From assembly GCA_037783545.1 (NCBI GenBank), contig JBBELK010001534.1:1-64000 (forward strand): a stretch of 64,000 nucleotides of DNA. The letters are read 5' to 3'. Below are positions 32,691-59,843 of this stretch, piece after piece (the first letter of the stretch is position 1; every line of letters starts with the position of its first letter). The position numbers and the translations under genes are program-made. This DNA comes from Henricia sp. BOLD:AAB3569 (taxonomy: Eukaryota > Echinodermata > Asteroidea > Spinulosida > Echinasteridae). Under the pieces are notes generated by a model. That model did no database searches. It was not told the origin of the DNA and saw only the letters and a program-made list of their open reading frames with translations.

Positions 32691-32780
32691 AAAATGGACA
32701 GACTTTCGCCGGGAAATGGCAAAGAAATTTCAAAGTTTAGAAAAAACTGGGTTGAGGCTTCCTGACTGCTCTCACGCAAA

Positions 32781-35470: not shown

Positions 35471-35693
35471 TACTCCTGAGTTGTGCGCATGCTCAGTCAT
35501 TCGGACTGTCGTTAACGCACCGCAGTTTGGCTCGGCAATTTGGTCAAAGTGTGGTCCAAACGTCGGCAAATTTGGAGGTCGAAAAATGTTTCGACGAACT
35601 TCAAATTTTGCATGCCCTAAACTCTCTATATTGCGCACTTGTCATAAAAAATTGACAGACTTTCGCCGGGAAATGGCAGAGAAATTTCAAAGT

Positions 35694-37134
35694 TTAGAAA
35701 AAACTGGGTTGAGGCTTCCTGACTGCTCTCACGCAAACCGTGGCTGTCTGTACACACCTCTTTGGGGTACTCCTGAGTTGTGCGCATGCTCAGTCATTCG
35801 GACTGTCGTTAACGCACCGCAGTTTGGCTCGGCAATTTGGTCAAAGTGTGGTCCAAACGTCGGCAAATTTTGAGGTCGAAAAATGTTCCGACGAACTTCA
35901 AATTTTGCATGCCCTAAACTCTCTATATTGCGCACTTGTCATAAAAAAATGGACAGACTTTCGCCGGGAAATGGCAGAGAAATTTCAAAGTTTAGAAAAA
36001 ACTGGGTTGAGGCTTCCTGACTGCTCTCACGCAAATCGTGGCTGTCTGTACACACCTCTTTGGGGTACTCCTGAGTTGTGCGCATGCTCAGTCATTCGGA
36101 CTGTCGTTAACGCACCGCAGTTTGGCTCGGCAATTTGGTCAAAGTGTGGTCCAAACGTCGGCAAATTTGGAGGTCGAAAAATGTTCCGACGAACTTCAAA
36201 TTTTGCATGCCCTAAACTCTCTATATTGCGCACTTGTCATAAAAAATTGACAGACTTTCGCCGGGAAATGGCAGAGAAATTTCAAAGTTTAGAAAAAACT
36301 GGGTTGAGGCTTCCTGACTGCTCTCACGCAAACCGTGGCTGTCTGTACACACCTCTTTGGGGTACTCCTGAGTTGTGCGCATGCTCAGTCATTCGGACTG
36401 TCGTTAACGCACCGCAGTTTGGCTCGGCAATTTGGTCAAAGTGTGGTCCAAACGTCGGCAAATTTGGAGGTCGAAAAATGTTCCGACGAACTTCAAATTT
36501 TGCATGCCCTAAACTCTCTATATTGCGCACTTGTCATAAAAAATTGACAGACTTTCGCCGGGAAATGGCAGAGAAATTTCAAAGTTTAGAAAAAACTGGG
36601 TTGAGGCTTCCTGACTGCTCTCACGCAAACCGTGGCTGTCTGTACACACCTCTTTGGGGTACTCCTGAGTTGTGCGCATGCTCAGTCATTCGGACTGTCG
36701 TTAACGCACCGCAGTTTGGCTCGGCAATTTGGTCAAAGTGTGGTCCAAACGTCGGAAAATTTGGAGGTCGAAAAATGTTCCGACGAACTTCAAATTTTGC
36801 ATGCCCTAAACTCTCTATATTGCGCACTTGTCATAAAAAATTGACAGACTTTCGCCGGGAAATGGCAGAGAAATTTCAAAGTTTAGAAAAAACTGGGTTG
36901 AGGCTTCCTGACTCCTCTCACGCAAACCGTGGCTGTCTGTACACACCTCTTTGGGGTACTCCTGAGTTGTGCGCATGCTCAGTCATTCGGACTGTCGTTA
37001 ACGCACCGCAGTTTGGCTCGGCAATTTGGTCAAAGTGTGGTCCAAACGTCGGCAAATTTGGAGGTCGAAAAATGTTCCGACGAACTTCAAATTTTGGATG
37101 CCCTAAACTCTCTATATTGCGCACTTGTCATAAA
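35694..37134 (+). repeat. Satellite A HOR block, copy 2 (partner of 31250-32690)
   Basis: Repeats the 31250-32690 marker order at +4444 bp: AAATTTTGAGG near 35870, ATGGACAG linker near 35949, CAAATCGTGG near 36034, GTCGGAAAATTT near 36753 and GACTCCTCTC at 36910. One private change, TTTTGGATGCCC near 37094, sets it apart. Confidence 0.88.
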
Positions 37135-38269
37135 AAATTGACAGACTTTCGCCGGGAAATGGCAGAGAAATTTCAAAGTTTAGAAAAAACTGGGTTGAGG
37201 CTTCCTGACTGCTCTCACGCAAACCGTGGCTGTCTGTACACACCTCTTTGGGGTACTCCTGAGTTGTGCGCATGCTCAGTCATTCGGACTGTCGTTAACG
37301 CACCGCAGTTTGGCTCGGCAATTTGGTCAAAGTGTGGTCCAAACGTCGGCAAATTTGGAGGTCGAAAAATGTTCCGACGAACTTCAAATTTTGCATGCCC
37401 TAAACTCTCTATATTGCGCACTTGTCATAAAAAATTGACAGACTTTCGCCGGGAAATGGCAGAGAAATTTCAAAGTTTAGAAAAAACTGGGTTGAGGCTT
37501 CCTGACTCCTCTCACGCAAACCGTGGCTGTCTGTACACACCTCTTTGGGGTACTCCTGAGTTGTGCGCATGCTCAGTCATTCGGACTGTCGTTAACGCAC
37601 CGCAGTTTGGCTCGGCAATTTGGTCAAAGTGTGGTCCAAACGTCGGCAAATTTGGAGGTCGAAAAATGTTCCGACGAACTTCAAATTTTGCATGCCCTAA
37701 ACTCTCTATATTGCGCACTTGTCATAAAAAATTGACAGACTTTCGCCGGGAAATGGCAGAGAAATTTCAAAGTTTAGAAAAAACTGGGTTGAGGCTTCCT
37801 GACTGCTCTCACGCAAACCGTGGCTGTCTGTACACACCTCTTTGGGGTACTCCTGAGTTGTGCGCATGCTCAGTCATTCGGACTGTCGTTAACGCACCGC
37901 AGTTTGGCTCGGCAATTTGGTCAAAGTGTGGTCCAAACGTCGGCAAATTTGGAGGTCGAAAAATGTTCCGACGAACTTCAAATTTTGCATGCCCTAAACT
38001 CTCTATATTGCGCACTTGTCATAAAAAAATGGACAGACTTTCGCCGGGAAATGGCAAAGAAATTTCAAAGTTTAGAAAAAACTGGGTTGAGGCTTCCTGA
38101 CTGCTCTCACGCAAATCGTGGCTGTCTGTACACACCTCTTTGGGGTACTCCTGAGTTGTGCGCATGCTCAGTCATTCGGACTGTCGTTAACGCACCGCAG
38201 TTTGGCTCGGCAATTTGGTCAAAGTGTGGTCCAAACGTCGGCAAATTTGGAGGTCGAAAAATGTTCTGA

Positions 38270-39880
38270 CGAACTTCAAATTTTGCATGCCCTAAACTCT
38301 CTATATTGCGCACTTGTCATAAAAAATTGACAGACTTTCGCCGGGAAATGGCAGAGAAATTTCAAAGTTTAGAAAAAACTGGGTTGAGGCTTCCTGACTG
38401 CTCTCACGCAAACCGTGGCTGTCTGTACACACCTCTTTGGGGTACTCCTGAGTTGTGCGCATGCTCAGTCATTCGGACTGTCGTTAACGCACCGCAGTTT
38501 GGCTCGGCAATTTGGTCAAAGTGTGGTCCAAACGTCGGCAAATTTGGAGGTCGAAAAATGTTCCGACGAACTTCAAATTTTGCATGCCCTAAACTCTCTA
38601 TATTGCGCACTTGTCATAAAAAATTGACAGACTTTCGCCGGGAAATGGCAGAGAAATTTCAAAGTTTAGAAAAAACTGGGTTGAGGCTTCCTGACTGCTC
38701 TCACGCAAACCGTGGCTGTCTGTACACACCTCTTTGGGGTACTCCTGAGTTGTGCGCATGCTCAGTCATTCGGACTGTCGTTAACGCACCGCAGTTTGGC
38801 TCGGCAATTTGGTCAAAGTGTGGTCCAAACGTCGGCAAATTTGGAGGTCGAAAAATGTTCCGACGAACTTCAAATTTTGCATGCCCTAAACTCTCTATAT
38901 TGCGCACTTGTCATAAACAAATGGACAGACTTTCGCCGGGAAATGGCAGAGAAATTTCAAAGTTTAGAAAAAACTGGGTTGAGGCTTCCTGACTGCTCTC
39001 ACGCAAATCGTGGCTGTCTGTACACACCTCTTTGGGGTACTCCTGAGTTGTGCGCATGCTCAGTCATTCGGACTGTCGTTAACGCACCGCAGTTTGGCTC
39101 GGCAATTTGGTCAAAGTGTGGTCCAAACGTCGGCAAATTTGGAGGTCGAAAAATGTTCCGACGAACTTCAAATTTTGCATGCCCTAAACTCTCTATATTG
39201 CGCACTTGTCATAAAAAATTGACAGACTTTCGCCGGGAAATGGCAGAGAAATTTCAAAGTTTAGAAAAAACTGGGTTGAGGCTTCCTGACTTCTCTCACG
39301 CAAACCGTGGCTGTCTGTACACACCTCTTTGGGGTACTCCTGAGTTGTGCGCATGCTCAGTCATTCGGACTGTCGTTAACGCACCGCAGTTTGGCTCGGC
39401 AATTTGGTCAAAGTGTGGTCCAAACGTCGGCAAATTTGGAGGTCGAAAAATGTTCCGACGAACTTCAAATTTTGCATGCCCTAAACTCTCTATATTGCGC
39501 ACTTGTCATAAAAAATTGACAGACTTTCGCCGGGAAATGGCAGAGAAATTTCAAAGTTTAGAAAAAACTGGGTTGAGGCTTCCTGACTGCTCTCACGCAA
39601 ACCGTGGCTGTCTGTACACACCTCTTTGGGGTACTCCTGAGTTGTGCGCATGCTCAGTCATTCGGACTGTCGTTAACGCACCGCAGTTTGGCTCGGCAAT
39701 TTGGTCAAAGTGTGGTCCAAACGTCGGCAAATTTGGAGGTCGAAAAATGTTCCGACGAACTTCAAATTTTGCATGCCCTAAACTCTCTATATTGCGCACT
39801 TGTCATAAAAAATTGACAGACTTTCGCCGGGAAATGGCAGAGAAATTTCAAAGTTTAGAAAAAACTGGGTTGAGGCTTCC
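38270..39880 (+). repeat. Satellite A HOR block, copy 1 (partner at offset 4160 bp)
   Basis: The CATAAACAAATGGACAG linker (about 38914), CAAATCGTGG (about 39005) and GACTTCTCTC (about 39289) recur in order 4160 bp downstream, 14 monomers plus two bases. The AAAGAAATTTC marker at 38056 also has its partner at +4160. Agreement ends near 39885, where GACAGCTCTC is private. Confidence 0.85.
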
Positions 39881-42429
39881 TGACAGCTCTCACGCAAACC
39901 GTGGCTGTCTGTACACACCTCTTTGGGGTACTCCTGAGTTGTGCGCATGCTCAGTCATTCGGACTGTCGTTAACGCACCGCAGTTTGGCTCGGCAATTTG
40001 GTCAAAGTGTGGTCCAAACGTCGGCAAATTTGGAGGTCGAAAAATGTTCCGACGAACTTCAAATTTTGCATGCCCTAAACTCTCTATATTGCGCACTTGT
40101 CATAAACAAATGACAGACTTTCGCCGGGAAATGGCAGAGAAATTTCAAAGTTTAGAAAAAACTGGGTTGAGGCTTCCTGACTGCTCTCACGCAAATCGTG
40201 GCTGTCTGTACACACCTCTTTGGGGTACTCCTGAGTTGTGCGCATGCTCAGTCATTCGGACTGTCGTTAACGCACCGCAGTTTGGCTCGGCAATTTGGTC
40301 AAAGTGTGGTCCAAACGTCGGCAAATTTGGAGGTCGAAAAATGTTCCGACGAACTTCAAATTTTGCATGCCCTAAACTCTCTATATTGCGCACTTGTCAT
40401 AACAAATTGACAGACTTTCGCCGGGAAATGGCAGAGAAATTTCAAAGTTTAGAAAAAACTGGGTTGAGGCTTCCTGACTTCTCTCACGCAAACCGTGGCT
40501 GTCTGTACACACCTCTTTGGGGTACTCCTGAGTTGTGCGCATGCTCAGTCATTCGGACTGTCGTTAACGCACCGCAGTTTGGCTCGGCAATTTGGTCAAA
40601 GTGTGGTCCAAACGTCGGCAAATTTGGAGGTCGAAAAATGTTCCGACGAACTTCAAATTTTGCATGCCCTAAACTCTCTATATTGCGCACTTGTCATAAA
40701 AAATTGACAGACTTTCGCCGGGAAATGGCAGAGAAATTTCAAAGTTTAGAAAAAACTGGGTTGAGGCTTCCTGACTGCTCTCACGCAAACCGTGGCTGTC
40801 TGTACACACCTCTTTGGGGTACTCCTGAGTTGTGCGCATGCTCAGTCATTCGGACTGTCGTTAACGCACCGCAGTTTGGCTCGGCAATTTGGTCAAAGTG
40901 TGGTCCAAACGTCGGCAAATTTGGAGGTCGAAAAATGTTCCGACGAACTTCAAATTTTGCATGCCCTAAACTCTCTATATTGCGCACTTGTCATAAAAAA
41001 TTGACAGACTTTCGCCGGGAAATGGCAGAGAAATTTCAAAGTTTAGAAAAAACTGGGTTGAGGCTTCCTGACTGCTCTCACGCAAACCGTGGCTGTCTGT
41101 ACACACCTCTTTGGGGTACTCCTGAGTTGTGCGCATGCTCAGTCATTCGGACTGTCGTTAACGCACCGCAGTTTGGCTCGGCAATTTGGTCAAAGTGTGG
41201 TCCAAACGTCGGCAAATTTGGAGGTCGAAAAATGTTCCGACGAACTTCAAATTTTGCATGCCCTAAACTCTCTATATTGCGCACTTGTCATAAAAAATTG
41301 ACAGACTTTCGCCGGGAAATGGCAGAGAAATTTCAAAGTTTAGAAAAAACTGGGTTGAGGCTTCCTGACTGCTCTCACGCAAACCGTGGCTGTCTGTACA
41401 CACCTCTTTGGGGTACTCCTGAGTTGTGCGCATGCTCAGTCATTCGGACTGTCGTTAACGCACCGCAGTTTGGCTCGGCAATTTGGTCAAAGTGTGGTCC
41501 AAACGTCGGCAAATTTGGAGGTCGAAAAATGTTCCGACGAACTTCAAATTTTGCATGCCCTAAACTCTCTATATTGCGCACTTGTCATAAAAAATTGACA
41601 GACTTTCGCCGGGAAATGGCAGAGAAATTTCAAAGTTTAGAAAAAACTGGGTTGAGGCTTCCTGACTGCTCTCACGCAAACCGTGGCTGTCTGTACACAC
41701 CTCTTTGGGGTACTCCTGAGTTGTGCGCATGCTCAGTCATTCGGACTGTCGTTAACGCACCGCAGTTTGGCTCGGCAATTTGGTCAAAGTGTGGTCCAAA
41801 CGTCGGAAAATTTGGAGGTCGAAAAATGTTCCGACGAACTTCAAATTTTGCATGCCCTAAACTCTCTATATTGCGCACTTGTCATAAAAAATTGACAGAC
41901 TTTCGCCGGGAAATGGCAGAGAAATTTCAAAGTTTAGAAAAAACTGGGTTGAGGCTTCCTGACTCCTCTCACGCAAACCGTGGCTGTCTGTACACACCTC
42001 TTTGGGGTACTCCTGAGTTGTGCGCATGCTCAGTCATTCGGACTGTCGTTAACGCACCGCAGTTTGGCTCGGCAATTTGGTCAAAGTGTGGTCCAAACGT
42101 CGGCAAATTTGGAGGTCGAAAAATGTTCCGACGAACTTCAAATTTTGCATGCCCTAAACTCTCTATATTGCGCACTTGTCATAAAAAAATGGACAGACTT
42201 TCGCCGGGAAATGGCAAAGAAATTTCAAAGTTTAGAAAAAACTGGGTTGAGGCTTCCTGACTGCTCTCACGCAAATCGTGGCTGTCTGTACACACCTCTT
42301 TGGGGTACTCCTGAGTTGTGCGCATGCTCAGTCATTCGGACTGTCGTTAACGCACCGCAGTTTGGCTCGGCAATTTGGTCAAAGTGTGGTCCAAACGTCG
42401 GCAAATTTGGAGGTCGAAAAATGTTCCGA

Positions 42430-44040
42430 CGAACTTCAAATTTTGCATGCCCTAAACTCTCTATATTGCGCACTTGTCATAAAAAATTGACAGACTTTCG
42501 CCGGGAAATGGCAGAGAAATTTCAAAGTTTAGAAAAAACTGGGTTGAGGCTTCCTGACTGCTCTCACGCAAACCGTGGCTGTCTGTACACACCTCTTTGG
42601 GGTACTCCTGAGTTGTGCGCATGCTCAGTCATTCGGACTGTCGTTAACGCACCGCAGTTTGGCTCGGCAATTTGGTCAAAGTGTGGTCCAAACGTCGGCA
42701 AATTTGGAGGTCGAAAAATGTTCCGACGAACTTCAAATTTTGCATGCCCTAAACTCTCTATATTGCGCACTTGTCATAAAAAATTGACAGACTTTCGCCG
42801 GGAAATGGCAGAGAAATTTCAAAGTTTAGAAAAAACTGGGTTGAGGCTTCCTGACTGCTCTCACGCAAACCGTGGCTGTCTGTACACACCTCTTTGGGGT
42901 ACTCCTGAGTTGTGCGCATGCTCAGTCATTCGGACTGTCGTTAACGCACCGCAGTTTGGCTCGGCAATTTGGTCAAAGTGTGGTCCAAACGTCGGCAAAT
43001 TTGGAGGTCAAAAAATGTTCCGACGAACTTCAAATTTTGCATGCCCTAAACTCTCTATATTGCGCACTTGTCATAAACAAATGGACAGACTTTCGCCGGG
43101 AAATGGCAGAGAAATTTCAAAGTTTAGAAAAAACTGGGTTGAGGCTTCCTGACTGCTCTCACGCAAATCGTGGCTGTCTGTACACACCTCTTTGGGGTAC
43201 TCCTGAGTTGTGCGCATGCTCAGTCATTCGGACTGTCGTTAACGCACCGCAGTTTGGCTCGGCAATTTGGTCAAAGTGTGGTCCAAACGTCGGCAAATTT
43301 GGAGGTCGAAAAATGTTCCGACGAACTTCAAATTTTGCATGCCCTAAACTCTCTATATTGCGCACTTGTCATAAAAAATTGACAGACTTTCGCCGGGAAA
43401 TGGCAGAGAAATTTCAAAGTTTAGAAAAAACTGGGTTGAGGCTTCCTGACTTCTCTCACGCAAACCGTGGCTGTCTGTACACACCTCTTTGGGGTACTCC
43501 TGAGTTGTGCGCATGCTCAGTCATTCGGACTGTCGTTAACGCACCGCAGTTTGGCTCGGCAATTTGGTCAAAGTGTGGTCCAAACGTCGGCAAATTTGGA
43601 GGTCGAAAAATGTTCCGACGAACTTCAAATTTTGCATGCCCTAAACTCTCTATATTGCGCACTTGTCATAAAAAATTGACAGACTTTCGCCGGGAAATGG
43701 CAGAGAAATTTCAAAGTTTAGAAAAAACTGGGTTGAGGCTTCCTGACTGCTCTCACGCAAACCGTGGCTGTCTGTACACACCTCTTTGGGGTACTCCTGA
43801 GTTGTGCGCATGCTCAGTCATTCGGACTGTCGTTAACGCACCGCAGTTTGGCTCGGCAATTTGGTCAAAGTGTGGTCCAAACGTCGGCAAATTTGGAGGT
43901 CGAAAAATGTTCCGACGAACTTCAAATTTTGCATGCCCTAAACTCTCTATATTGCGCACTTGTCATAAAAAATTGACAGACTTTCGCCGGGAAATGGCAG
44001 AGAAATTTCAAAGTTTAGAAAAAAATGGGTTGAGGCTTCC
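42430..44040 (+). repeat. Satellite A HOR block, copy 2 (partner of 38270-39880)
   Basis: Same marker order as 38270-39880 at +4160 bp, with private changes GGTCAAAAAATG near 43008 and GAAAAAAATGGG near 44023. The 9-bp-deleted monomer near 44455 lies just beyond it. Confidence 0.85.
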
Positions 44041-47000
44041 TGACTGCTCTCACGCAAACCGTGGCTGTCTGTACACACCTCTTTGGGGTACTCCTGAGTT
44101 GTGCGCATGCTCAGTCATTCGGACTGTCGTTAACGCACCGCAGTTTGGCTCGGCAATTTGGTCAAAGTGTGGTCCAAACGTCGGCAAATTTGGAGGTCGA
44201 AAAATGTTCCGACGAACTTCAAATTTTGCATGCCCTAAACTCTCTATATTGCGCACTTGTCATAAACAAATGGACAGACTTTCGCCGGGAAATGGCAGAG
44301 AAATTTCAAAGTTTAGAAAAAACTGGGTTGAGGCTTCCTGACTGCTCTCACGCAAATCGTGGCTGTCTGTACACACCTCTTTGGGGTACTCCTGAGTTGT
44401 GCGCATGCTCAGTCATTCGGACTGTCGTTAACGCACCGCAGTTTGGGTCGGCAAAGTGTGGTCCAAACGTCGGCAAATTTGGAGGTCGAAAAATGTTCCG
44501 ACGAACTTCAAATTTTGCATGCCCTAAACTCTCTATATTGCGCACTTGTCATAAAAAATTGACAGACTTTCGCCGGGAAATGGCAGAGAAATTTCAAAGT
44601 TTAGAAAAAACTGGGTTGAGGCTTCCTGACTCCTCTCACGCAAACCGTGGCTGTCTGTACACACCTCTTTGGGGTACTCCTGAGTTGTGCGCATGCTCAG
44701 TCATTCGGACTGTCGTTAACGCACCGCAGTTTGGCTCGGCAATTTAGTCAAAGTGTGGTCCAAACGTCGGCAAATTTGGAGGTCGAAAAATGTTCCGACG
44801 AACTTCAAATTTTGCATGCCCTAAACTCTCTATATTGCGCACTTGTCATAAAAAAATGGACAGACTTTCGCCGGGAAATGGCAGAGAAATTTCAAAGTTT
44901 AGAAAAAACTGGGTTGAGGCTTCCTGACTGCTCTCACGCAAATCGTGGCTGTCTGTACACACCTCTTTGGGGTACTCCTGAGTTGTGCGCATGCTCAGTC
45001 ATTCGGACTGTCGTTAACGCAGCGCAGTTTGGCTCGGCAATTTGGTCAAAGTGTGGTCCAAACGTCGGCAAATTTGGAGGTCGAAAAATGTTCCGACGAA
45101 CTTCAAATTTTGCATGCCCTAAACTCTCTATATTGCGCACTTGTCATAAAAAAATGGACAGACTTTCGCCGGGAAATGGCAGAGAAATTTCAAAGTTTAG
45201 AAAAAACTGGGTTGAGGCTTCCTGACTGCTCTCACGCAAATCGTGGCTGTCTGTACACACCTCTTTGGGGTACTCCTGAGTTGTGCGCATGCTCAGTCAT
45301 TCGGACTGTCGTTAACGCACCGCAGTTTGGCTCGGCAATTTGGTCAAAGTGTGGTCCAAACGTCGGCAAATTTGGAGGTCGAAAAATGTTCCGACGAACT
45401 TCAAATTTTGCATGCCCTAAACTCTCTATATTGCGCACTTGTCATAAAAAATTGACAGACTTTCGCCGGGAAATGGCAGAGAAATTTCAAAGTTTAGAAA
45501 AAACTGGGTTGAGGCTTCCTGACTCCTCTCACGCAAACCGTGGCTGTCTGTACACACCTCTTTGGGGTACTCCTGAGTTGTGCGCATACTCAGTCATTCG
45601 GACTGTCGTTAACGCACCGCAGTTTGGCTCGGCAATTTGGTCAAAGTGTGGTCCAAACGTCGGCAAATTTGGAGGTCGAAAAATGTTCCGACGAACTTCA
45701 AATTTTGCATGCCCTAAACTCTCTATATTGCGCACTTGTCATAAAAAAATGGACAGACTTTCGCCGGGAAATGGCAGAGAAATTTCAAAGTTTAGAAAAA
45801 ACTGGGTTGAGGCTTCCTGACTGCTCTCACGCAAATCGTGGCTGTCTGTACACACCTCTTTGGGGTACTCCTGAGTTGTGCGCATGCTCAGTCATTCGGA
45901 CTGTCGTTAACGCACCGCAGTTTGGCTCGGCAATTTGGTCAAAGTGTGGTCCAAACGTCGGCAAATTTGGAGGTCGAAAAATGTTCCGACGAACTTCAAA
46001 TTTTGCATGCCCTAAACTCTCTATATTGCGCACTTGTCATAAAAAATTGACAGACTTTCGCCGGGAAATGGCAGAGAAATTTCAAAGTTTAGAAAAAACT
46101 GGGTTGAGGCTTCCTGACTGCTCTCACGCAAACCGTGGCTGTCTGTACACACCTCTTTGGGGTACTCCTGAGTTGTGCGCATGCTCAGTCATTCGGACTG
46201 TCGTTAACGCACCGCAGTTTGGCTCGGCAATTTGGTCAAAGTGTGGTCCAAACGTCGGCAAATTTGGAGGTCGAAAAATTTTCCGACGAACTTCAAATTT
46301 TGCATGCCCTAAACTCTCTATATTGCGCACTTGTCATAAAAAATTGACAGACTTTCGCCGGGAAATGGCAGAGAAATTTCAAAGTTTAGAAAAAACTGGG
46401 TTGAGGCTTCCTGACTGCTCTCACGCAAACCGTGGCTGTCTGTACACACCTCTTTGGGGTACTCCTGAGTTGTGCGCATGCTCAGTCATTCGGACTGTCG
46501 TTAACGCACCGCAGTTTGGCTCGGCAATTTGGTCAAAGTGTGGTCCAAACGTCGGCAAATTTGGAGGTCGAAAAATGTTCCGACGAACTTCAAATTTTGC
46601 ATGCCCTAAACTCTCTATATTGCGCACTTGTCATAAAAAATTGACAGACTTTCGCCTGGAAATGGCAGAGAAATTTCAAAGTTTAGAAAAAACTGGGTTG
46701 AGGCTTCCTGACTGCTCTCACGCAAACCGTGGCTGTCTGTACACACCTCTTTGGGGTACTCCTGAGTTGTGCGCATGCTCAGTCATTCGGACTGTCGTTA
46801 ACGCACCGCAGTTTGGCTCGGCAATTTGGTCAAAGTGTGGTCCAAACGTCGGAAAATTTGGAGGTCGAAAAATGTTCCGACGAACTTCAAATTTTGCATG
46901 CCCTAAACTCTCTATATTGCGCACTTGTCATAAAAAATTGACAGACTTTCGCCGGGAAATGGCAGAGAAATTTCAAAGTTTTGAAAAAACTGGGTTGAGG

Positions 47001-48464
47001 CTTCCTGACTCCTCTCACGCAAACCGTGGCTGTCTGTACACACCTCTTTGGGGTACTCCTGAGTTGTGCGCATGCTCAGTCATTCGGACTGTCGTTAACG
47101 CACCGCAGTTTGGCTCGGCAATTTGGTCAAAGTGTGGTCCAAACGTCGGCAAATTTGGAGGTCGAAAAATGTTCCGACGAACTTCATATTTTGCATGCCC
47201 TAAACTCTCTATATTGCGCACTTGTCATAAAAAATTGACAGACTTTCACCGGGAAATGGCAGAGAAATTTCAAAGTTTAGAAAAAACTGGGTTGAGGCTT
47301 CCTGACTGCTCTCACGCAAACCGTGGCTGTCTGTACACACCTCTTTGGGGTACTCCTGAGTTGTGCGCATGCTCAGTCATTCGGACTGTCGTTAACGCAC
47401 CGCAGTTTGGCTCGGCAATTTGGTCAAAGTGTGGTCCAAACGTCGGCAAATTTGGAGGTCGAAAAATGTTCCGACGAACTTCAAATTTTGCATGCCCTAA
47501 ACTCTCTATATTGCGCACTTGTCATAAAAAATTGACAGACTTTCACCGGGAAATGGCAGAGAAATTTCAAAGTTTAGAAAAAACTGGGTTGAGGCTTCCT
47601 GACTGCTCTCACGCAAACCGTGGCTGTCTGTACACACCTCTTTGGGGTACTCCTGAGTTGTGCGCATGCTCAGTCATTCGGACTGTCGTTAACGCACCGC
47701 AGTTTGGCTCGGCAATTTGGTCAAAGTGTGGTCCAAACGTCGGCAAATTTGGAGGTCGAAAAATGTTCCGACGAACTTCAAATTTTGCATGCCCTAAACT
47801 CTCTATATTGCGCACTTGTCATAAAAAAATTGACAGACTTTCGCCGGGAAATGGCAGAGAAATTTCAAAGTTTAGAAAAAACTGGGTTGAGGCTTCCTGA
47901 CTGCTCTCACGCAAACCGTGGCTGTCTTTACACACCTCTTTGGGGTACTCCTGAGTTGTGCGCATGCTCAGTCATTCGGACTGTCGTTAACGCACCGCAG
48001 TTTGGCTCGGCAATTTGGTCAAAGTGTGGTCCAAACGTCGGCAAATTTGGAGGTCGAAAAATGTTCCGACGAACTTCAAATTTTGCATGCCCTAAACTCT
48101 CTATATTGCGCACTTGTCATAAAAAATTGACAGACTTTCGCCGGGAAATGGCAGAGAAATTTCAAAGTTTAGAAAAAACTGGGTTGAGGCTTCCTGACTC
48201 CTCTCACGCAAACCATGGCTGTCTGTACACACCTCTTTGGGGTACTCCTGAGTTGTGCGCATGCTCAGTCATTCGGACTGTCGTTAACGCACCGCAGTTC
48301 GGCTCGGCAATTTGGTCAAAGTGTGGTCCAAACGTCGGCAAATTTGGAGGTCGAAAAATGTTCCGACGAACTTCAAATTTTGCATGCCCTAAACTCTCTA
48401 TATTGCGCACTTGTCATAAAAAATTGACAGACTTTCGCCGGGAAATGGCAGAGAAATTTCAAAG

Positions 48465-48500
48465 TTTAGAAAAAACTGGGTTATCGTCGAATCTAGCAAA
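48465..48500 (+). other. Junction of satellite A with satellite B
   Basis: The last A monomer reads TTTAGAAAAAACTGGGTT, and satellite B begins at GTTATCGTCGAATC with no spacer. GTT at 48480-48482 fits both families. In B the bases before GTTATCG are TTTAAACCGACAGA, comparable with TTTAGAAAAAACTGG of A. The switch therefore falls at matching points of the two monomers, as expected from exchange between related repeats or from one family arising out of the other. The first B monomer is the short form and carries GAACTGAACGAATT and TTTCAACAATTT, mildly unusual for B. Confidence 0.93.
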
Positions 48501-48709
48501 AACTCCTTTTCGCACGAGCAGACGCCGCTTTCGTGAAACCTTGCGTCTGAAACGGTCGCTATTTTGGAACTGAACGAATTGGCAGACAAACTTCCAATTT
48601 TGCCTGCTAAAACAACTCTATATCCCAAACGTGTTGTGCACATTTCAACAATTTCCCGTTTAAACCGACAGAGTTATCGTCGAATCTAGCAAAAACTCCC
48701 TGCCGCACA

Positions 48710-48862
48710 GTTTTCGCACGAGCAGACGCCGCTTTCGTGAAACCTTGCGTCTGAAACGGTCGCTATTTTGGAACTGAAGGAATTGGCAGACAAACTTCCA
48801 ATTTTGCCTGCTAAAACAACTCTATATCCCAAACGTGTTGTGCAAATTTCAGCAATTTCCCG
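48710..48862 (+). repeat. Part of a satellite B monomer that aligns with satellite A 153-309
   Basis: Landmarks occur in the same order and orientation in both families: GTTTTCGCACGAGCAG (A: GTTAACGCACCGCAG), GAAACGGTCGCTATTTTGGA (A: CAAACGTCGGCAAATTTGGA), GACAAACTTCCAATTTTGC (A: GACGAACTTCAAATTTTGC), CTCTATAT (identical), TTGTGCAAATTT (A: TTGTCATAAAAAATT) and CAGCAATTTCCCG (A: CAGACTTTCGCC). A 39-bp part, 235-273 in A and 48585-48623 in the first B monomer, aligns without gaps at 30 of 39. The alignment was done by eye. Confidence 0.8.
48723..48753. other. Dyad symmetry in the satellite B monomer (reference copy)
   Basis: CAGACGC and GCGTCTG form a 7-bp perfect inverted repeat around a 17-base spacer. 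Its middle, TTTCGTGAAA, is itself a 4-bp dyad around GT, so the element is nearly symmetric about one centre. It occurs in nearly every B monomer. Some units (about 57660, 58676, 61316, 62329) lack one base in the right arm and keep six pairs. Confidence 0.85.
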
Positions 48863-48886
48863 TTTAAACCGACAGAGTTATCGTCG

Positions 48887-49510
48887 AATCTAGCAAAAAC
48901 TCCCTGCCGGCACAGTTTTCGCACGAGCAGACGCCGCTTTCGTTAAACCTTGCGTCTGAAACGGTCGCTATTTTGGAACTGAAGGAATTGGCGGACAAAC
49001 TTCCAATTTTGCCTGCTATAAAACAACTCTATATCCCAAACGTGTTGTGCACATTTCAGCAATTTCCCGTTTAAACCGACAGAGTTATCGTCGAATCTAG
49101 CAAAAACTCCCTGCCGGCACAGTTTTCGCACGAGCAGACGCCGCTTTCGTGAAACCTTGCGTCTGAAACGGTCGCTATTTTGGAACTGAAGGAATTGGCA
49201 CACAAACTTTCAATTCTGCCTGCTAAAACAACTCTATATCCCAAACGTGTTGTGCAAATTTCAGCAATTTCCCGTTTAAACCGACAGAGTTATCGTCGAA
49301 TCTAGCAAAAACTCCCTGCCGGCGCAGTTTTCGCACAAGCAGACGCCGCTTTCGTGAAACCTTGCGTCTGAAACGGTCGCTATTTTGGAACTGAAGGAAT
49401 TGGCAGACAAACTTCCAATTTTGCCTGCTAAAACAACTCTATATCCCAAACGTGTTGTGCAAATTTCAGCAATTTCCCGTTTAAACCGACAGAGTTATCG
49501 TCGAATCTAG
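48887..49510 (+). repeat. Satellite B duplicated block, copy 1 (offset about 1657 bp)
   Basis: Three monomers, including GCCTGCTATAAAAC near 49012, GGCACACAAACTTTC near 49196 and GGCGCAGTTTTCGCACAAGC near 49321, recur about 1657 bp downstream. The match ends where the next unit is short here but long in the second copy. Confidence 0.8.
49289..49493 (+). repeat. Reference long monomer of satellite B (205 bp)
   Basis: Order of parts: GTTATCGTCGAATCTAGC, AAAAACTCCCTGCC, the GGCGCAG box (GGCACAG in most units), TTTTCGCAC, the dyad CAGACGC..GCGTCTG, GAAACGGTCGCTATTTTGG, GACAAACTTCCAATTTTGCC, CTCTATATCCCAAACG, TTGTGCAAATTTCAGC, then TTTCCCGTTTAAACCGACAGA. It holds about 14 CpG sites. Confidence 0.93.
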
Positions 49511-49686
49511 CAAAAACTCCTTTTCGCACGAGCAGACGCCGCTTTCGTAAAACCTTGCGTCTGAAACGGTCGCTATTTTGGAACTGAAGGAATTGGCAGA
49601 CAAACTTCCAATTTTGCCTGCTAAAACAACACTATATCCCAAACGTGTTGTGCAAATTTCAGCAATTTCCCGTTTAAACCGACAGA
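49494..49686 (+). repeat. Reference short monomer of satellite B (193 bp)
   Basis: Same as the long unit except that AAAACTCC runs directly into TTTTCGCACGAG, 12 bp shorter. Short units recur roughly every two to seven long units and act as markers of the higher-order structure. The same deletion endpoints in every short unit indicate a single origin. Confidence 0.92.
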
Positions 49687-50493
49687 GTTATCGTCGAATC
49701 TAGCAAAAACTCCCTGCCGGCACAGTTTTTGCACGAGCAGACGCCGCTTTCGTGAAACCTTGCGTCTGAAACGGTCGCTATTTTGGAACTGAAGGAATTG
49801 GCAGACAAACTTCCAATTTTGCCTGCTAAAAAAACTCTATATCCCAAACGTGTTGTGCAAATTTCAGCAATTTCCCGTTTAAACCGACAGAGTTATCGTC
49901 GAATCTAGCAAAAACTCCTTTTCGCACGAGCAGACGCCGCTTTCGTGAAACCTTGCGTCTGAAACGGTCGCTATTTTGGAACTGAAGGAATTGGCACACA
50001 AACTTTCAATTCTGCCTGCTAAAACAACTCTATATCCCAAACGTGTTGTGCAAATTTCAGCAATTTCCCGTTTAAACCGACAGAGTTATCGTCGAATCTA
50101 GCAAAAACTTCCTGCCGGCGCAGTTTTCGCACAAGCAGACGCCGCTTTCGTGAAACCTTGCGTCTGAAACGGTCGCTATTTTGGAACTGAAGGAATTTGC
50201 AGACAAACTTCCAATTTCGCCTGCTAAAACAACTCTATATCCCAAACGTGTTGTGCACATTTCAGCAATTTCCCGTTTAAACCGACAGAGTTATCGTCGA
50301 ATCTAGCAAAAACTCCCTGCCAGCACATTTTTCGCACGAGCAGACGCCGCTTTCATGAAACCTTGCGTCTGAAACGGTCGCTATTTTGGAACTGAAGGAA
50401 TTGGCAGACAAACTTCCAATTTTGCCTGCTAAAACAACTCTATATCCCAAACGTGTTGTGCAAATTTCAGCAATTTCCCGTTTAAACCGACAG

Positions 50494-50543
50494 AGTTATC
50501 GTCGAATCTAGCAAAAACTCCTTTTCGCACGAGCAGACGCAAA
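50494..50543 (+). repeat. Truncated satellite B monomer (about 50 bp) at an internal breakpoint
   Basis: A short-form unit starts normally but stops after GAGCAGACGC and jumps to AAAAATCTAGCAAAAACTCC, the start region of another unit. About 150 bp of the monomer is missing. The breakpoint coincides with the left edge of the second copy of the block from 48887-49510, so it looks like the scar of the exchange that made that duplication. Confidence 0.88.
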
Positions 50544-51167
50544 AATCTAGCAAAAACTCCCTGCCGGCACAGTTTTCGCACGAGCAGACGCCGCTTTCGT
50601 GAAACCTTGCGTCTGAAACGGTCGCTATTTTGGAACTGAAGGAATTGGCGGACAAACTTCCAATTTTGCCTGCTATAAAACAACTCTATATCCCAAACGT
50701 GTTGTGCACATTTCAGCAATTTCCCGTTTAAACCGACAGAGTTATCGTCGAATCTAGCAAAAACTCCCTGCCGGCACAGTTTTCGCACGAGCAGACGCCG
50801 CTTTCGTGAAACCTTGCGTCTGAAACGGTCGCTATTTTGGAACTGAAGGAATTGGCACACAAACTTTCAATTCTGCCTGCTAAAACAACTCTATATCCCA
50901 AACGTGTTGTGCAAATTTCAGCAATTTCCCGTTTAAACCGACAGAGTTATCGTCGAATCTAGCAAAAACTCCCTGCCGGCGCAGTTTTCGCACAAGCAGA
51001 CGCCGCTTTCGTGAAACCTTGCGTCTGAAACGGTCGCTATTTTGGAACTGAAGGAATTGGCAGACAAACTTCCAATTTTGCCTGCTAAAACAACTCTATA
51101 TCCCAAACGTGTTGTGCAAATTTCAGCAATTTCCCGTTTAAACCGACAGAGTTATCGTCGAATCTAG
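50544..51167 (+). repeat. Satellite B duplicated block, copy 2 (partner of 48887-49510)
   Basis: Repeats GCCTGCTATAAAAC (about 50669), GGCACACAAACTTTC (about 50853) and GGCGCAGTTTTCGCACAAGC (about 50978) at about +1657 bp. It begins at the truncated-monomer breakpoint near 50543. Confidence 0.8.
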
Positions 51168-54100
51168 CAAAAACTCCCTGCCGGCGCAGTTTTCGCACAA
51201 GCAGACGCCGCTTTCGTGAAACCTTGCGTCTGAAACGGTCGCTATTTTGGAACTGAAGGAATTGGCAGACAAACTTCCAATTTTGCCTGCTAAAACAACT
51301 CTATATCCCAAACGTGTTGTGCAAATTTCAGCAATTTCCCGTTTAAACCGACAGAGTTATCGTCGAATCTAGCAAAAACTCCTTTTCGCACGAGCAGACG
51401 CCGCTTTCGTGAAACCTTGCGTCTGAAACGGTCGCTATTTTGGAACTGAAGGAATTGGCAGACAAACTTCCAATTTTGCCTGCTAAAACAACTCTATATC
51501 CCAAACGTGTTGTGCAAATTTCAGCAATTTCCCGTTTAAACCGACTGAGTTATCGTCGAATCTAGCAAAAACTCCCTGCCGGCACAGTTTTTGCACGAGC
51601 AGACGCCGCTTTCGTGAAACCTTGCGTCTGAAACGGTCGCTATTTTGGAACTGAAGGAATTGGCAGACAAACTTCCAATTTTTCCTGCTAAAAAAACTCT
51701 ATATCCCAAACGTGTTGTGCAAATTTCAGCAATTTCCCGTTTAAACCGACAGAGTTATCGTCGAATCTAGCAAAAACTCCCTGCCGGCACAGTTTTCGCA
51801 CGAGCAGACGCCGCTTTCGTGAAACCTTGCGTCTGAAACGGTCGCTATTTTGGAACTGAAGGAATTGGCAGACAAACTTCCAATTTTGCCTGCTAAAAAA
51901 ACTCTATATCCCAAACGTGTTGTGCAAATTTCAGCAATTTCCCGTTTAAACCGACAGAGTTATCGTCGAATCTAGCAAAAACTCCTTTTCGCACGAGCAG
52001 ACGCCGCTTTCGTGAAACCTTGCGTCTGAAACGGTCGCTATTTTGGAACTGAAGGAATTGGCACACAAACTTTCAATTCTGCCTGCTAAAACAACTCTAT
52101 ATCCCAAACGTGTTGTGCAAATTTTAGCAATTTCCCGTTTAAACCGACAGAGTTATCGTCGAATCTAGCAAAAACTCCCTGCCGGCGCAGTTTTCGCACA
52201 AGCAGACGCCGCTTTCGTGAAACCTTGCGTCTGAAACGGTCGCTATTTAGGAACTGAAGGAATTTGCAGACAAACTTCCAATTTCGCCTGCTAAAACAAC
52301 TCTATATCCCAAACGTGTTGTGCAAATTTCAGCAATTTCCCGTTTAAACCGACAGAGTTATCGTCGAATCTAGCAAAAACTCCTTTTCGCACGAGCAGAC
52401 GCCGCTTTCGTGAAACCTTGCGTCTGAAACGGTCGCTATTTTGGAAATGAAGGAATTGGCAGACAAACTTCCAATTTTGCCTGCTAAAACAACTCTATAT
52501 CCCAAACGTGTTGTGCAAATTTCAGCAATTTCCCGTTTAAACCGACAGAGTTATCGTCGAATCTAGCAAAAACTCCCTGCCGGCACAGTTTTTTGCACGA
52601 GCAGACGCCGCTTTCGTGAAACCTTGCGTCTGAAACGGTCGCTATTTTGGAACTGAAGGAATTGGCAGACAAACTTCCAATTTTGCCTGCTAAAAAAACT
52701 CTATATCCCAAACGTGTTGTGCAAATTTCAGCAATTTCCCGTTTAAACCGACAGAGTTATCGTCGAATCTAGCAAAAACTCCTTTTCGCACGAGCAGACG
52801 CCGCGTTCGTGAAACCTTGCGTCTGAAACGGTCGCTATTTTGGAACTGAAGGAATTGGCACACAAACTTTCAATTCTGCCTGCTAAAACAACTCTATATC
52901 CCAAACGTGTTGTGCAAATTTCAGCAATTTCCCGTTTAAACCGACAGAGTTATCGTCGAATCTAGCAAAAACTCCCTGCCGGCGCAGTTTTCGCACAAGC
53001 AGACGCCGCTTTCGTGAAACCTTGCGTCTGAAACGGTCGCTATTTTGGAACTGAAGGAATTTGCAGACAAACTTCCAATTTCGCCTGCTAAAACAACTCT
53101 ATATCCCAAACGTGTTGTGCACATTTCAGCAATTTCCCGTTTAAACCGACAGAGTTATCGTCGAATCTAGCAAAAACTCCCTGCCAGCACATTTTTCGCA
53201 CGAGCAGACGCCGCTTTCGTGAAACCTTGCGTCTGAAACGGTCGCTATTTTGGAACTGAAGGAATTGGCAGACAAACTTCCAATTTTGCCTGCTAAAACA
53301 ACTCTATATCCCAAACGTGTTGTGCAAATTTCAGCAATTTCCCGTTTAAACCGACAGAGTTATCGTCGAATCTAGCAAAAACTCCTTTTCGCACGAGCAG
53401 ACGCCGCTTTCGTGAAACCTTGCGTCTGAAACGGTCGCTATTTTGGAACTGAAGGAATTGGCAGACAAACTTCCAATTTTGCCTGCTAAAACAACTCTAT
53501 ATCCCAAACGTGTTGTGCAAATTTCAGCAATTTCCCGTTTAAACCGACTGAGTTATCGTCGAATCTAGCAAAAACTCCCTGCCGGCACAGTTTTTGCACG
53601 AGCAGACGCCGCTTTCGTGAAACCTTGCGTCTGAAACGGTCGCTATTTTGGAACTGAAGGAATTGGCAGACAAACTTCCAATTTTGCCTGCTAAAACAAC
53701 TCTATATCCCAAACGTGTTGTGCAAATTTCAGCAATTTCCCGTTTAAACCGACAGAGTTATCGTCGAATCTAGCAAAAACTCCCTGCCGGCACAGTTTCC
53801 GCACGAGCAGACGCCGCTTTCGTGAAACCTTGCGTCTGAAACGGTCGCTATTTTGGAACTGAAGTAATTGGCAGACAAACTTCCAATTTTGCCTGCTAAA
53901 ACAACTCTATATCCCAAACGTGTTGTGCAAATTTCAGCAATTTCCCGTTTAAACCGACAGAGTTATCGTCGAATCTAACAAAAACTCCTTTTCGCACGAG
54001 CAGACGCCGCTTTCGTGAAACCTTGCGTCTGAAACGGTCGCTATTTTGGAACTGAAGGAATTGGCAGACAAACTTCCAATTTTGCCTGCTAAAACAACTC

Positions 54101-56190
54101 TATATCCCAAACGTGTTGTGCAAATTTCAGCAATTTCCCGTTTAAACCGACTGAGTTATCGTCGAATCTAGCAAAAACTCCCTGCCGGCACAGTTTTTGC
54201 ACGAGCAGACGCCGCTTTCGTGAAACCTTGCGTCTGAAACGGTCGCTATTTTGGAACTGAAGGAATTGGCAGACAAACTTCCAATTTTTCCTGCTAAAAA
54301 AACTCTATATCCCAAACGTGTTGTGCAAATTTCAGCAATTTCCCGTTTAAACCGACAGAGTTATCGTCGAATCTAGCAAAAACTCCTTTTCGCACGAGCA
54401 GACGCCGCTTTCGTGAAACCTTGCGTCTGAAACGGTCGCTATTTTGGAACTGAAGGAATTGGCAGACAAACTTCCAATTTTGCCTGCTAAAACAACTCTA
54501 TATCCCAAACGTGTTGTGCAAATTTCAGCAATTTCCCGTTTAAACCGACAGAGTTATCGTCGAATCTAGCAAAAACTCCCTGCCGGCACAGTTTTCGCAC
54601 GAGCAGACGCCGCTTTCGTGAAACCTTGCGTCTGAAACGGTCGCTATTTTGGAACTGAAGGAATTGGCAGACAAACTTCCAATTTTGCCTGCTAAAACAA
54701 CTCTATATCCCAAACGTGTTGTGCAAATTTTAGCAATTTCCCGTTTAAACCGACAGAGTTATCGTCGAATCTAGCAAAAACTCCTTGCCGGCACAGTTTT
54801 CGCACGAGCAGACGCCGCTTTCGTGAAACCTTGCGTCTGAAACGGTCGCTATTTTGGAACTGACGGAATTGGCAGACAAACTTCCAATTTTGCCTGCTAA
54901 AACAACTCTATATCCCAAACGTGTTGTGAAAATTTCAGCAATTTCCCGTTTAAACCGACAGAGTTATCGTCGAATCTAGCAAAAACTCCCTGCAGGCACA
55001 GTTTTCGCACGAGCAGACGCCGCTTTCGTTAAACCTTGCGTCTGAAACGGTCGCTATTTTGGAACTGAAGGAATTGGCAGACAAACTTCCAATTTTGCCT
55101 GCTAAAACAACTCTATATCCCAAACGTGTTGTGAAAATTTCAGCAATTTCCCGTTTAAACCGACAGAGTTATCGTCGAATCTAGCAAAAACTACCTGCCG
55201 CACAGTTTTCGCACGAGCAGACGCCGCTTTCGTGAAACCTTGCGTCTGTAACGGTCGCTATTTTGGAACTGAAGGAATTGGCAGACAAACTTCCAATTTT
55301 GCCTGCTAAAACAACTCTATATCCCAAACGTGTTGTGCAAATTTCAGCAATTTCCTGTTTAAACTGACAGAGTTATCGTCGAATCTAGCAAAAACTCCCT
55401 GCTGGCACAGTTTTCGCACGAGCAGACGCCGCTTTCGTAAAACCTTGCGTCTGAAACGGTCGCTATTTTGGAACTGAGAGAATTTACAGACAAACTTCCA
55501 ATTTTGCCTGCTAAAACAACTCTATATCCCAAACGTGTTGTGCACATTTCAGCAATTTCCCGTTTAAACCGACAGAGTTATCGTCGAATCTAGCAAAAAC
55601 TCCTTTTCGCACGAGCAGACGCCGCTTTCGTGAAACCTTGCGTCTGAAACGGTCGCTATTTTGGAACTGAAGGAATTGGCAGACAAACTTCCAATTTTGC
55701 CTGCTAAAACAACTCTATATCCCAAACGTGTTGTGCAAATTTCAGCAATTTCCCGTTTAAACCGACTGAGTTATCGTCGAATCTAGCAAAAACTCCCTGC
55801 CGGCACAGTTTTTGCACGAGCAGACGCCGCTTTCGTGAAACCTTGCGTCTGAAACGGTCGCTATTTTGGAACTGAAGGAATTGGCAGACAAACTTCCAAT
55901 TTTTCCTGCTAAAAAAACTCTATATCCCAAACGTGTTGTGCAAATTTCAGCAATTTCCCGTTTAAACCGACAGAGTTATCGTCGAATCTAGCAAAAACTC
56001 CTTTTCGCACGAGCAGACGCCGCTTTCGTGAAACCTTGCGTCTGAAACGGTCGCTATTTTGGAACTGAAGGAATTGGCAGACAAACTTCCAATTTTGCCT
56101 GCTAAAACAACTCTATATCCCAAACGTGTTGTGCAAATTTCAGCAATTTCCCGTTTAAACCGACAGAGTTATCGTCGAATCTAGCAAAAA

Positions 56191-59100
56191 CTCCATGCCG
56201 GCACAGTTTTCGCACGAGCAGACGCCGCTTTCGTGAAACCTTGCGTCTGAAACGGTCGCTATTTTGGAACTGACGGAATTGGCAGACAAACTTCCAATGT
56301 TGCCTGCTAAAACAACTCTATATCCCAAACGTGTTGTGCAAATTTCAGCAATTTCCCGTTTAAACCGACAGAGTTATCGTCGAATCTAGCAAAAACTCCC
56401 TGCAGGCACAGTTTTCGCACGAGCAGACGCCGCTTTCGTGAAACCTTGCGTCTGAAACGGTCGCTATTTTGGAACTGAAGGAATTGGCAGACAAACTTCC
56501 AATTTTGCCTGCTAAAACAACTCTATATCCCAAACGTGTTGTGAAAATTTCAGCAATTTCCCGTTTAAACCGACAGAGTTATCGTCGAATCTAGCAAAAA
56601 CTCCCTGCCGGCACAGTTTTCGCACGAGCAGACGCCGCTTTCGTGAAACCTTGCGTCTGAAACGGTCGCTATTTTGGAACTGAAGGAATTGGCAGACAAA
56701 CTTCAAATTTTGCCTGCTAAAACAACTCTATATCCCAAACGTGTTGTGCAAATTTCAGCAATTTCCCGTTTAAACCGACTGAGTTATCGTCGAATCTAGC
56801 AAAAACTCCCTGCCGGCACAGTTTTTGCACGAGCAGACGCCGCTTTCGTGAAACCTTGCGTCTGAAACGGTCGCTATTTTGGAACTGAAGGAATTGGCAG
56901 ACAAACTTCCAATTTTTCCTGCTACAAAAACTCTATATCCCAAACGTGTTGTGCAAATTTCAGCAATTTCCCGTTTAAACCGACAGAGTTATCGTCGAAT
57001 CTAGCAAAAACTCCTTTTCGCACGAGCAGACGCCGCTTTCGTGAAACCTTGCGTCTGAAACGGTCGCTATTTTGGAACTGAAGGAATTGGCAGGCAAACT
57101 TCCAATTTTGCCTGCTAAAACAACTCTATATCCCAAACGTGTTGTGCAAATTTCAGCAATTTCCCGTTTAAACCGACAGAGTTATCGTCGAATCTAGCAA
57201 AAACTCCATGCCGGCACAGTTTTCGCACGAGCAGACGCCGCTTTCGTGAAACCTTGCGTCTGAAACGGTCGCTATTTTGGAACTGACGGAATTGGCAGAC
57301 AAACTTCCAATGTTGCCTGCTAAAACAACTCTATATCCCAAACGTGTTGTGCAAATTTCAGCAATTTCCCGTTTAAACCGACAGAGTTATCGTCGAATCT
57401 AGCAAAAACTCCCTGCAGGCACAGTTTTCGCACGAGCAGACGCCGCTTTCGTGAAACCTTGCGTCTGAAACGGTCGCTATTTTGGAACTGAAGGAATTGG
57501 CAGACAAACTTCCAATTTTGCCTGCTAAAACAACTCTATATCCCAAACGTGTTGTGAAAATTTCAGCAATTTCCCGTTTAAACCGACAGAGTTATCGTCG
57601 AATCTAGCAAAAACTACCTGCCGCACAGTTTTCGCACGAGCAGACGCCGCTTTCGCGAAACCTTCGTCTGAAACGGTCGCTATTTTGGAACTGAAGGAAT
57701 TGGCAGACAAACTTCCAATTTTGCCTGCTAAAACAACTCTATATCCCAAACGTGTTGTGCAAATTTCAGCAATTTCCCGTTTAAACCGACAGAGTTATCG
57801 TCGAATCTAGCAAAAACTCCCTGCCGGGCACAGTTTTCGCACGAGCAGACGCCGCTTTCGTGAAACCTTGCGTCTGAAACGGTCGCTATTTTGGAACTGA
57901 AGGAATTGGCAGACAAACTTCCAATTTTGCCTGCTAAAACAATTCTATATCCCAAACGTGTTGTGCAAATTTCAGCAATTTCCCGTTTAAACCGACAGAG
58001 TTATCGTCGAATCTAGCAAAAAACTCCTTTTCGCACGAGCAGACGCCGCTTTCGTGAAACCTTGCGTCTGAAACGGTCGCTATTTTGGAACTGAAGGAAT
58101 TGGCAGACAAACTTCCAATTTTGCCTGCTAAAACAACTCTATATCCCAAACGTGTTGTGCAAATTTCAGCAATTTCCCGTTTAAACCGACAGAGTTATCG
58201 TCGAATCTAGCAAAAACTCCATGCCGGCACAGTTTTCGCACGAGCAGACGCCGCTTTCGTGAAACCTTGCGTCTGAAACGGTCGCTATTTTGGAACTGAC
58301 GGAATTGGCAGACAAACTTCCAATGTTGCCTGCTAAAACAACTCTATATCCCAAACGTGTTGTGCAAATTTCAGCAATTTCCCGTTTAAACCGACAGAGT
58401 TATCGTCGAATCTAGCAAAAACTCCCTGCAGGCACAGTTTTCGCACGAGCAGACGCCGCTTTCGTGAAACCTTGCGTCTGAAACGGTCGCTATTTTGGAA
58501 CTGAAGGAATTGGCAGACAAACTTCCAATTTTGCCTGCTAAAACAACTCTATATCCCAAACGTGTTGTGAAAATTTCAGCAATTTCCCGTTTAAACCGAC
58601 AGAGTTATCGTCGAATCTAGCAAAAACTACCTGCCGCACAGTTTTCGCACGAGCAGACGCCGCTTTCGTGAAACCTTCGTCTGAAACGGTCGCTATTTTG
58701 GAACTGAAGGAATTGGCAGACAAACTTCCAATTTTGCCTGCTAAAACAACTCTATATCCCAAACGTGTTGTGCAAATTTCAGCAATTTCCCGTTTAAACC
58801 GACAGAGTTATCGTCGAATCTAGCAAAAACTCCCTGCCGGCACAGTTTTCGCACGAGCAGACGCCGCTTTCGTGAAACCTTGCGTCTGAAACGGTCGCTA
58901 TTTTGGAACTGAAGGAATTGGCAGACAAACTTCCAATTTTGCCTGCTAAAACAACTCTATATCCCAAACGTGTTGTGCAAATTTCAGCAATTTCCCGTTT
59001 AAACCGACAGAGTTATCGTCGAATCTAGCAAAAACTCCCTGCCGGCACAGTTTTCGCACGAGCAGACGCCGCTTTCGTGAAACCTTGCGTCTGAAACGGT

Positions 59101-59843
59101 CGCTATTTTGGAACTGACGGAATTGGCAGACAAACTTCCAATTTTGCCTGCTAAAACAACTCTATATCCCAAACGTGTTGTGAAAATTTCAGCAATTTCC
59201 CGTTTAAACCGACAGAGTTATCGTCGAATCTAGCAAAAACTACCTGCCGCACAGTTTTCGCACGAGCAGACGCCGCTTTCGTGAAACCTTGCGTCTGTAA
59301 CGGTCGCTATTTTGGAACTGAAGGAATTGGCAGACAAACTTCCAATTTTGCCTGCTAAAACAACTCTATATCCCAAACGTGTTGTGCAAATTTCAGCAAT
59401 TTCCTGTTTAAACTGACAGAGTTATCGTCGAATCTAGCAAAAAACTCCCTGCTGGCACAGTTTTCGCACGAGCAGACGCCGCTTTCGTAAAACCTTGCGT
59501 CTGAAACGGTCGCTATTTTGGAACTGAGAGAATTTACAGACAAACTTCCAATTTTGCCTGCTAAAACAACTCTATATCCCAAACGTGTTGTGCACATTTC
59601 AGCAATTTCCCGTTTAAACCGACAGAGTTATCGTCGAATCTAGCAAAAACTCCTTTTCGCACGAGCAGACGCCGCTTTCGTGAAACCTTGCGTCTGAAAC
59701 GGTCGCTATTTTGGAACTGAAGGAATTGGCGGACAAACTTCCAATTTTGCCTGCTAAAACAACTCTATATCCCAAACGTGTTGTGCAAATTTCAGCAATT
59801 TCCCGTTTAAAACCGACAGAGTTATCGTCGAATCTAGCAAAAA
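56191..59843 (+). repeat. Satellite B 18-monomer higher-order repeat, copy 1 (about 3.65 kb)
   Basis: Marker CTCCATGCCGGC starts at 56191, 57204 and 58217, exactly 1013 bp apart (four long units plus one short), and next at 59844 after 1627 bp (seven long plus one short). The three segments hold different ordered variants: ACCGACTGAG with GCACGAG after TTTTT in the first, TACCTGCCGCAC with CCTTCGTCTG and CCGGGCAC in the second, CTGTAACGG and GAGAGAATTTACAG in the third. The whole 5+5+8 series then repeats 3652-3653 bp downstream. Confidence 0.9.

Follow-up and report, generated by a model that had tools for sequence, protein, structure and literature searches.

Two tandem repeats of different period lie side by side in this contig, which raises the question of whether they descend from one ancestor and whether their abutment records how a satellite monomer changes length and displaces its parent, as an earlier note on this DNA had proposed. 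The window, i.e., the whole stretch of 64,000 bp that was analysed, corresponds to C1534:1-64000 of a 740.7 Mb genome assembly comprising 2104 contigs. Features of the window lie on the plus strand unless stated otherwise.

Two satellite arrays and their abundance

Satellite A, delimited by TRF and unit splitting, occupies positions 1..48479 with monomers of 297 bp. It is followed at 48483..64000 by satellite B (delimited by unit splitting), which is composed of 205-bp monomers and a 193-bp variant without the 12 bp CTGCCGGCACAG of the longer form, and which extends past the window to the contig end at position 76396, for a total of 27.9 kb. Within the window, the mean identity over 1500 random pairs was 98.5% for A (153 clean units), 97.2% for the long B units (n = 57), and 98.6% for the short B units (n = 17). 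Both repeats are satellite DNA, forming long head-to-tail series of near-identical monomers (48 kb for A and 27.9 kb, up to the contig end, for B), and A was also present as short arrays within Mb-size contigs. In the window, nothing matched Rfam at the gathering score, and a tRNA search was negative. Satellite A used as a DNA query returned no match, which is not proof of absence, and a literature search found no paper naming these two satellites, in itself weak evidence.

Other sequences were observed within these arrays. Three foreign inserts of about 670-700 bp each, made of 67-bp repeats, interrupt A at 20679..21346, 26421..27124, and 28902..29605 (TRF, unit splitting), and they were probably amplified together with their A array. 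The insert starts with GGCGGTCGGGTTGGCGTACGGG, a sequence that in reverse orientation also stands at one end of a dispersed, tRNA-like repeat of the C30 stretch. An element of about 134 bp, bounded by perfect 17-bp inverted repeats GGGCTGCTTTCGAGCGC and containing 10-bp repeats (L032:5562-5695 and L028:8830-8957), was located within A arrays or next to them at C3 and C2, and visual inspection placed it likewise at C403 and C1338; the occurrences at C2, C403, and C1338 are copies of one arrangement, and one end of the element matched at least 31 further places at E below 1e-22. Regarding satellite B, a B array at C718 includes a 2.2-kb run of inverted B units (L025:5174-7421).

When considering the whole assembly, a degenerate 19-bp core pattern that does not separate A from B had 536,642 matches when as many as 2 mismatches were allowed, compared to 41 for the reversed control; with 205 to 297 bp per match, these make up 15 to 21% of the assembly. 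The exact A core accounted for 390,922 copies (control 0), about 13.6 to 15.7% of the assembly at 258 to 297 bp each, a lower bound in which altered cores are uncounted. For B, a 35-bp pattern searched with as many as 3 mismatches, which may miss more distant B types, yielded 41,003 matches (control 0), about 1.1% of the assembly. The 145,720 degenerate-core matches besides the exact A cores comprise the B types reached together with altered A cores, so that A exceeds B by at least 2.7 to 1 on these counts. A comparably abundant invertebrate satellite is PcH-sat of the limpet Patella caerulea, whose 179-bp monomer makes up about 10% of the genome and was traced to Nin-SINE, according to the available part of the report (PMC11121367); the likeness is one of abundance.

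Similarity of the two monomers and the relics that bridge them

The core alignment on which the proposed kinship had been based, A 235..273 against B 48585..48623 without gaps at 30/39, was reproduced exactly, and the best 39-mer among 1000 dinucleotide-shuffled monomer pairs reached 26/39. Placing the consensus monomers from the core starts (239 in A, 48589 in B), the gap-free alignment covers 185 columns with 101 identical, from 164..348 in A and from 48514..48698 in the first B monomer. The earlier note had also paired the rest of B with A. The homology it saw there stands over these 185 columns, but its pairing of GTTTAAACCGACAGAGTT with GTTTAGAAAAAACTGGGTT is 27 bp out of register, and in the best alignment GACAGAG of B lies opposite GGCAGAG of A, and AGCAAAAACTC of B opposite AGAAAAAACTG of A. 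Doubled consensus A against B scored 35 in a first scoring scheme (null 18.1 +/- 2.3, maximum 31; z 7.3) and 313 in a second (null 128 +/- 24, maximum 216; z 7.6); neither score was reached by any of 1000 dinucleotide shuffles, and the reverse-strand scores of 21 and 152 fell within the shuffle null. Likewise, six A types compared to B205 gave z values of 6.8 to 11.8 (0/500 shuffles each), and the truncated A218, a seventh A type, gave a z of 11.2.

Monomers of intermediate length were sought throughout the genome, as had been suggested, and were found. Core pairs spaced 210-270 bp numbered 19,555 genome-wide (control 0), and the examples examined came from the first 100 of them. In the same genome, A variants range from 294 bp through 273 bp (at C14) down to 258 bp (at C71), and truncated units of 241 and 218 bp occur among full-length ones (C53, C16). 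A294, A273, and A258 resembled B at z values of 11.2-11.8, above the window A (z 7.1). On the B side, C221, C123, and C776 harbour relatives of about 205 bp whose core carries an A-like base, and an array at C167 has 209-bp units. Some of these subfamily consensuses derive from few units (A258, n = 3; A296_C2, n = 5; A294, n = 7), and the sets A273_C14 and A296_C16 include overlapping loci.

Since A and B are only 52-57% identical, their kinship shows best through decayed relics. A variant-core search led to C30:1452300-1453200, a decayed array with a step of A length (297 bp) and, after it on the same strand, one of B length (192 bp). Beyond these steps the pattern is not clean: 293 bp separate the next pair of cores that can still be recognised, and another, badly decayed core lies inside that interval. 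The A-length unit of C30 matched A294 at 227/320 aligned bases, extra segment included, and the two units after it were 64% identical to doubled B in an alignment of 414 columns (E 2e-33). When the genome was searched with the C30 relic, 40 of 1803 candidates were scored, and the matches listed included C917 (97%, a near copy), the A-length C450 (75%), a set formed by C339, C288, C160, and C779 (77-78% of one stretch), another formed by C416, C177, and C14 (73-74%), and B-type arrays (about 67%). The decayed C339 monomer, with 189 bp to the next core, was 62-65% identical to 6 A types and 62-66% identical to 7 B types, and its z values of 17.1 against B205, 16.6 against the window A, and 14.7 against A294 compare with 6.9 for the window A and 10.5 for A294 when these were set directly against B205. 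Among the A-length relics examined, C119 was closest to A294 (225/284), and C450 matched it at 237/319, in both cases with the extra stretch included. Additionally, a B-like fragment (z 12.6 against B205) was found at 9 places, 7 of which share the same join to an A tail and are therefore copies of one event. These relics are few and hand-picked from search matches, and several have long branches. The C30 relic matches C948 and C1321 at intervals of ~2246 bp, which suggests a B-type higher-order repeat of ~11 units.

A and B thus share common ancestry and can be placed in one superfamily, with homology beyond chance and beyond the core and with monomers intermediate in both sequence and length. 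The idea that they are diverged members of one family has held up, and neither of the two outcomes named beforehand as fatal to it was observed, as the shuffled monomers fall short of the observed score and the similarity extends beyond the 39-bp core. It is very improbable that A and B are otherwise unrelated satellites with nothing but this core in common, whether as a conserved box for protein binding or as a converted patch. Although the best 20-column window of the A/B diagonal falls in the core (17-18/20), and Meloidogyne satellites sharing only short boxes are described in the accessible portion of PMC3694981, the A297/B205 diagonal without the core retains 72/146 identical positions compared to a best of 61 on 120 other diagonals, and the core-less diagonal beats those 120 for each of 6 A types. 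The upstream and downstream flanks of the core, taken separately, were equalled by 0-8/1000 shuffles over 7 A types, and the similarity of the relics to A and B runs well past the core. Identity was only marginally concentrated in the core (three A types, p 0.04-0.14); no special functional box need therefore be invoked, and the core as a selected box was set aside. An independent origin of A and B from one dispersed element, such as a transposon with an internal repeat, in place of a tandem ancestor is also improbable, if less so. The relic units of C30 are head-to-tail neighbours, as are those of C339, which speaks for a tandem ancestor even though other C30 units are scattered with different sequence between them and the small inverted-repeat element lies in or beside A arrays at four contigs. 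Matches among five flanks of three A arrays do not begin at the array edge, and the searches made revealed no complete element of defined ends that carried a single monomer and recurred at many sites.

Junction, extra segment, and direction of length change

The two arrays meet at 48480..48482 in a GTT common to both, outside the shared core. The register jumps by 27 bp at this point (A offset 114, B offset 87); a junction in register, which followed from the earlier pairing, was discarded because the gap-free alignment places it 27 bp off. The identity of the nearest full unit to its own consensus is 0.99 on the A side and 0.985 on the B side. The 23-mer spanning the junction had 43 matches in the whole assembly, namely 1 exact (the window itself), 0 at 1 mismatch, 1 at 2 mismatches (L055, a site without satellite core), and 41 at 3 mismatches, 5 of which were examined and proved internal to B arrays; this uniqueness holds for the 23-mer sequence alone. 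With a unique 23-mer and homogeneous flanks, the abutment represents one event or one assembly error, and it holds no monomer in transition. The expectation that it would offer a view of a satellite replacing its parent is therefore not borne out, as the join is abrupt, nor are A and B parent and child, since the tree described below shows them as cousins. The evidence for length change is in the relics elsewhere in the genome, not at the junction. Apparent further A/B junctions at C13 and C718 proved to be B throughout.

The A monomer exceeds B by 92 bp. In the first unit, the segment without a counterpart in B spans 56..138, from GAGGCTTCC to about CTCAG, and its 83 bp are close to the 80-90 bp previously claimed. 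A partial duplication of the monomer as the source of this segment was tried and rejected: the segment aligned with the rest of A no better than 297/500 shuffles (reversed, 259), and with B no better than 379/500 (reversed, 53). Its self-palindrome is weak (17/500 shuffles as good). A genome search with the segment gave 6 places, the query itself included and all 6 candidates scored; A was absent from these matches, probably because its words are too common. The matches at C450, C30, C119, and C269 were read as A-length relics, and C917 was also among the 6. Five of the 6 places were inspected, and no clean donor was found. At C1746:84900-85250 (L067), an A-type extra segment has little recognisable monomer on either side and may be a donor or a truncated relic.

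The monomer tree was built from 203 columns and 22 of 25 rows (C339_x2, C30_m6, and C30_m8 were dropped as too short or decayed), with the extra segment unscored in 4 of the 22 (Cfrag_C2, C450_p2, C30_m5, and C30_m7). A and B each formed a compact group (100/99 and 91/93, respectively), with 9 relics between them. The short C339 was placed on the A side, while C30 m2 and m3 and all 7 B types were on the other; as short monomers occur on both sides and long ones only toward A, a short ancestor is favoured. Support is lacking (43/0) for the branch on which the position of the short C339 with respect to the long relics depends. The extra segment has to change 2 times on the best tree, and a single extra-bearing clade was not rejected by the AU test (p 0.117). 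The short monomer was thus probably ancestral, a polarity that is favoured, not proven.

The reverse direction, with an ancestor of ~295 bp from which B and the short C339 monomer each lost ~90 bp, appears less plausible, yet deserves serious weight. Shortened A forms (273, 258, 241, and 218 bp) are common and the 19,555 core pairs at reduced spacing accord with a family that readily loses sequence; the authors on the Drosophila 1.688 satellites, in the available text of PMC7642928, favour long-to-short for their case. Repeated losses would be needed, however, with short monomers on both sides of the tree, where support is weak. A separate matter, compatible with common ancestry, is whether the abutment is an assembly chimera, which we regard as unlikely: the junction 23-mer has its single exact match here and both sides are highly repetitive, but the join is clean, on the same strand and with a 3-bp overlap, and nothing specific suggests an error. 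The family relationship of A and B is independent of the junction in any case.

Proposed history, known systems, and a CENP-B-like box

Satellite monomers change by insertions and deletions, unequal exchange spreads some of the variants, and old units decay in place. We give a probability of roughly two-thirds to a history in which one old family with a short ancestor split into A and B, the extra segment was gained by the A branch, and the arrays were joined at GTT. The ancestral tandem monomer would have measured about 190-205 bp, close to the C339 relic. One branch would have retained that length and become B, while the other, by an insertion of ~90 bp, would have given a proto-A of ~295-300 bp (represented by the C450, C30, and C119 relics) and then A. 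Turnover through unequal exchange and local amplification would have homogenised both branches and enlarged them, A to a greater extent than B, with single units meanwhile decaying in place in contigs with other sequence. In the window, a homogeneous A array would have become joined to a homogeneous B array on the same strand by one illegitimate or microhomology-mediated event at GTT. This anatomy appears to fit ordinary satellite turnover, and no function is indicated by these data. There is an even chance that a monomer of ~200 bp gained its ~90-bp segment just once and that the longer form went on to take at least ~14-16% of the assembly, the unextended branch remaining minor. If so, decayed arrays keep both the short and the newly lengthened forms, and the order of growth, divergence, and takeover could be read from one genome.

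Satellite turnover is so rapid that connections between dissimilar satellites rarely survive; here, two satellites of 52-57% identity are linked through relics of either length within one genome. The coexistence of long and short monomers is already known from the 1.688 family, and the in-genome relic record is what A and B add. As described in the part of PMC7642928 at hand, 1.688 monomers of ~360 and ~190 bp differ by one central block of ~170 bp, the long and short forms share well-conserved motifs and one deletion separates them, copies lie near genes, and the ancestral length is considered impossible to know. A and B resemble that system in having a long and a short monomer in one family, a likeness in the mode of length variation only, and differ from it in their lower identity and in relics that lean toward a short-first order. 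In Meloidogyne chitwoodi and M. fallax, several satellites with 32-64% identity carry conserved boxes and form composite arrays (PMC3694981, in the sections available). Diverged satellites of one genome are likewise joined here; in contrast, the Meloidogyne junctions fall in conserved boxes, the A/B junction lies at a GTT outside the core, and the authors, in those sections, suppose two unrelated groups, whereas A and B are related. With relics of both lengths in one genome, one or two related genomes would suffice to test in which direction the monomer changed length.

Finally, B carries a CENP-B-like sequence, TGTCGGTTTAAACGGGA, on the minus strand at 48655-48669 and at about one site per B monomer. 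It agrees with 8/9 essential and 13/17 total bases of the 17-bp CENP-B box; neither B nor A bears all nine of its essential bases. In the window, TGTCGGTTTAAACGGGA was exact in 62 copies per 75 monomer cores and had 79 sites at up to 1 mismatch compared to 13.1 expected. Among 2000 shuffled B monomers, 98 reached 8/9 essential bases and 11 reached both values, so the box in B is only a lead. Thirteen A consensuses carried 6-7 of the 9 essential bases. In the 273-bp A form at L043 (C71), a consensus of 2 units contains TTTCGTTGGGAAATGGC, which agrees with the CENP-B box at 13/17 total and 6/9 essential bases and lies on the strand opposite to the box of B.
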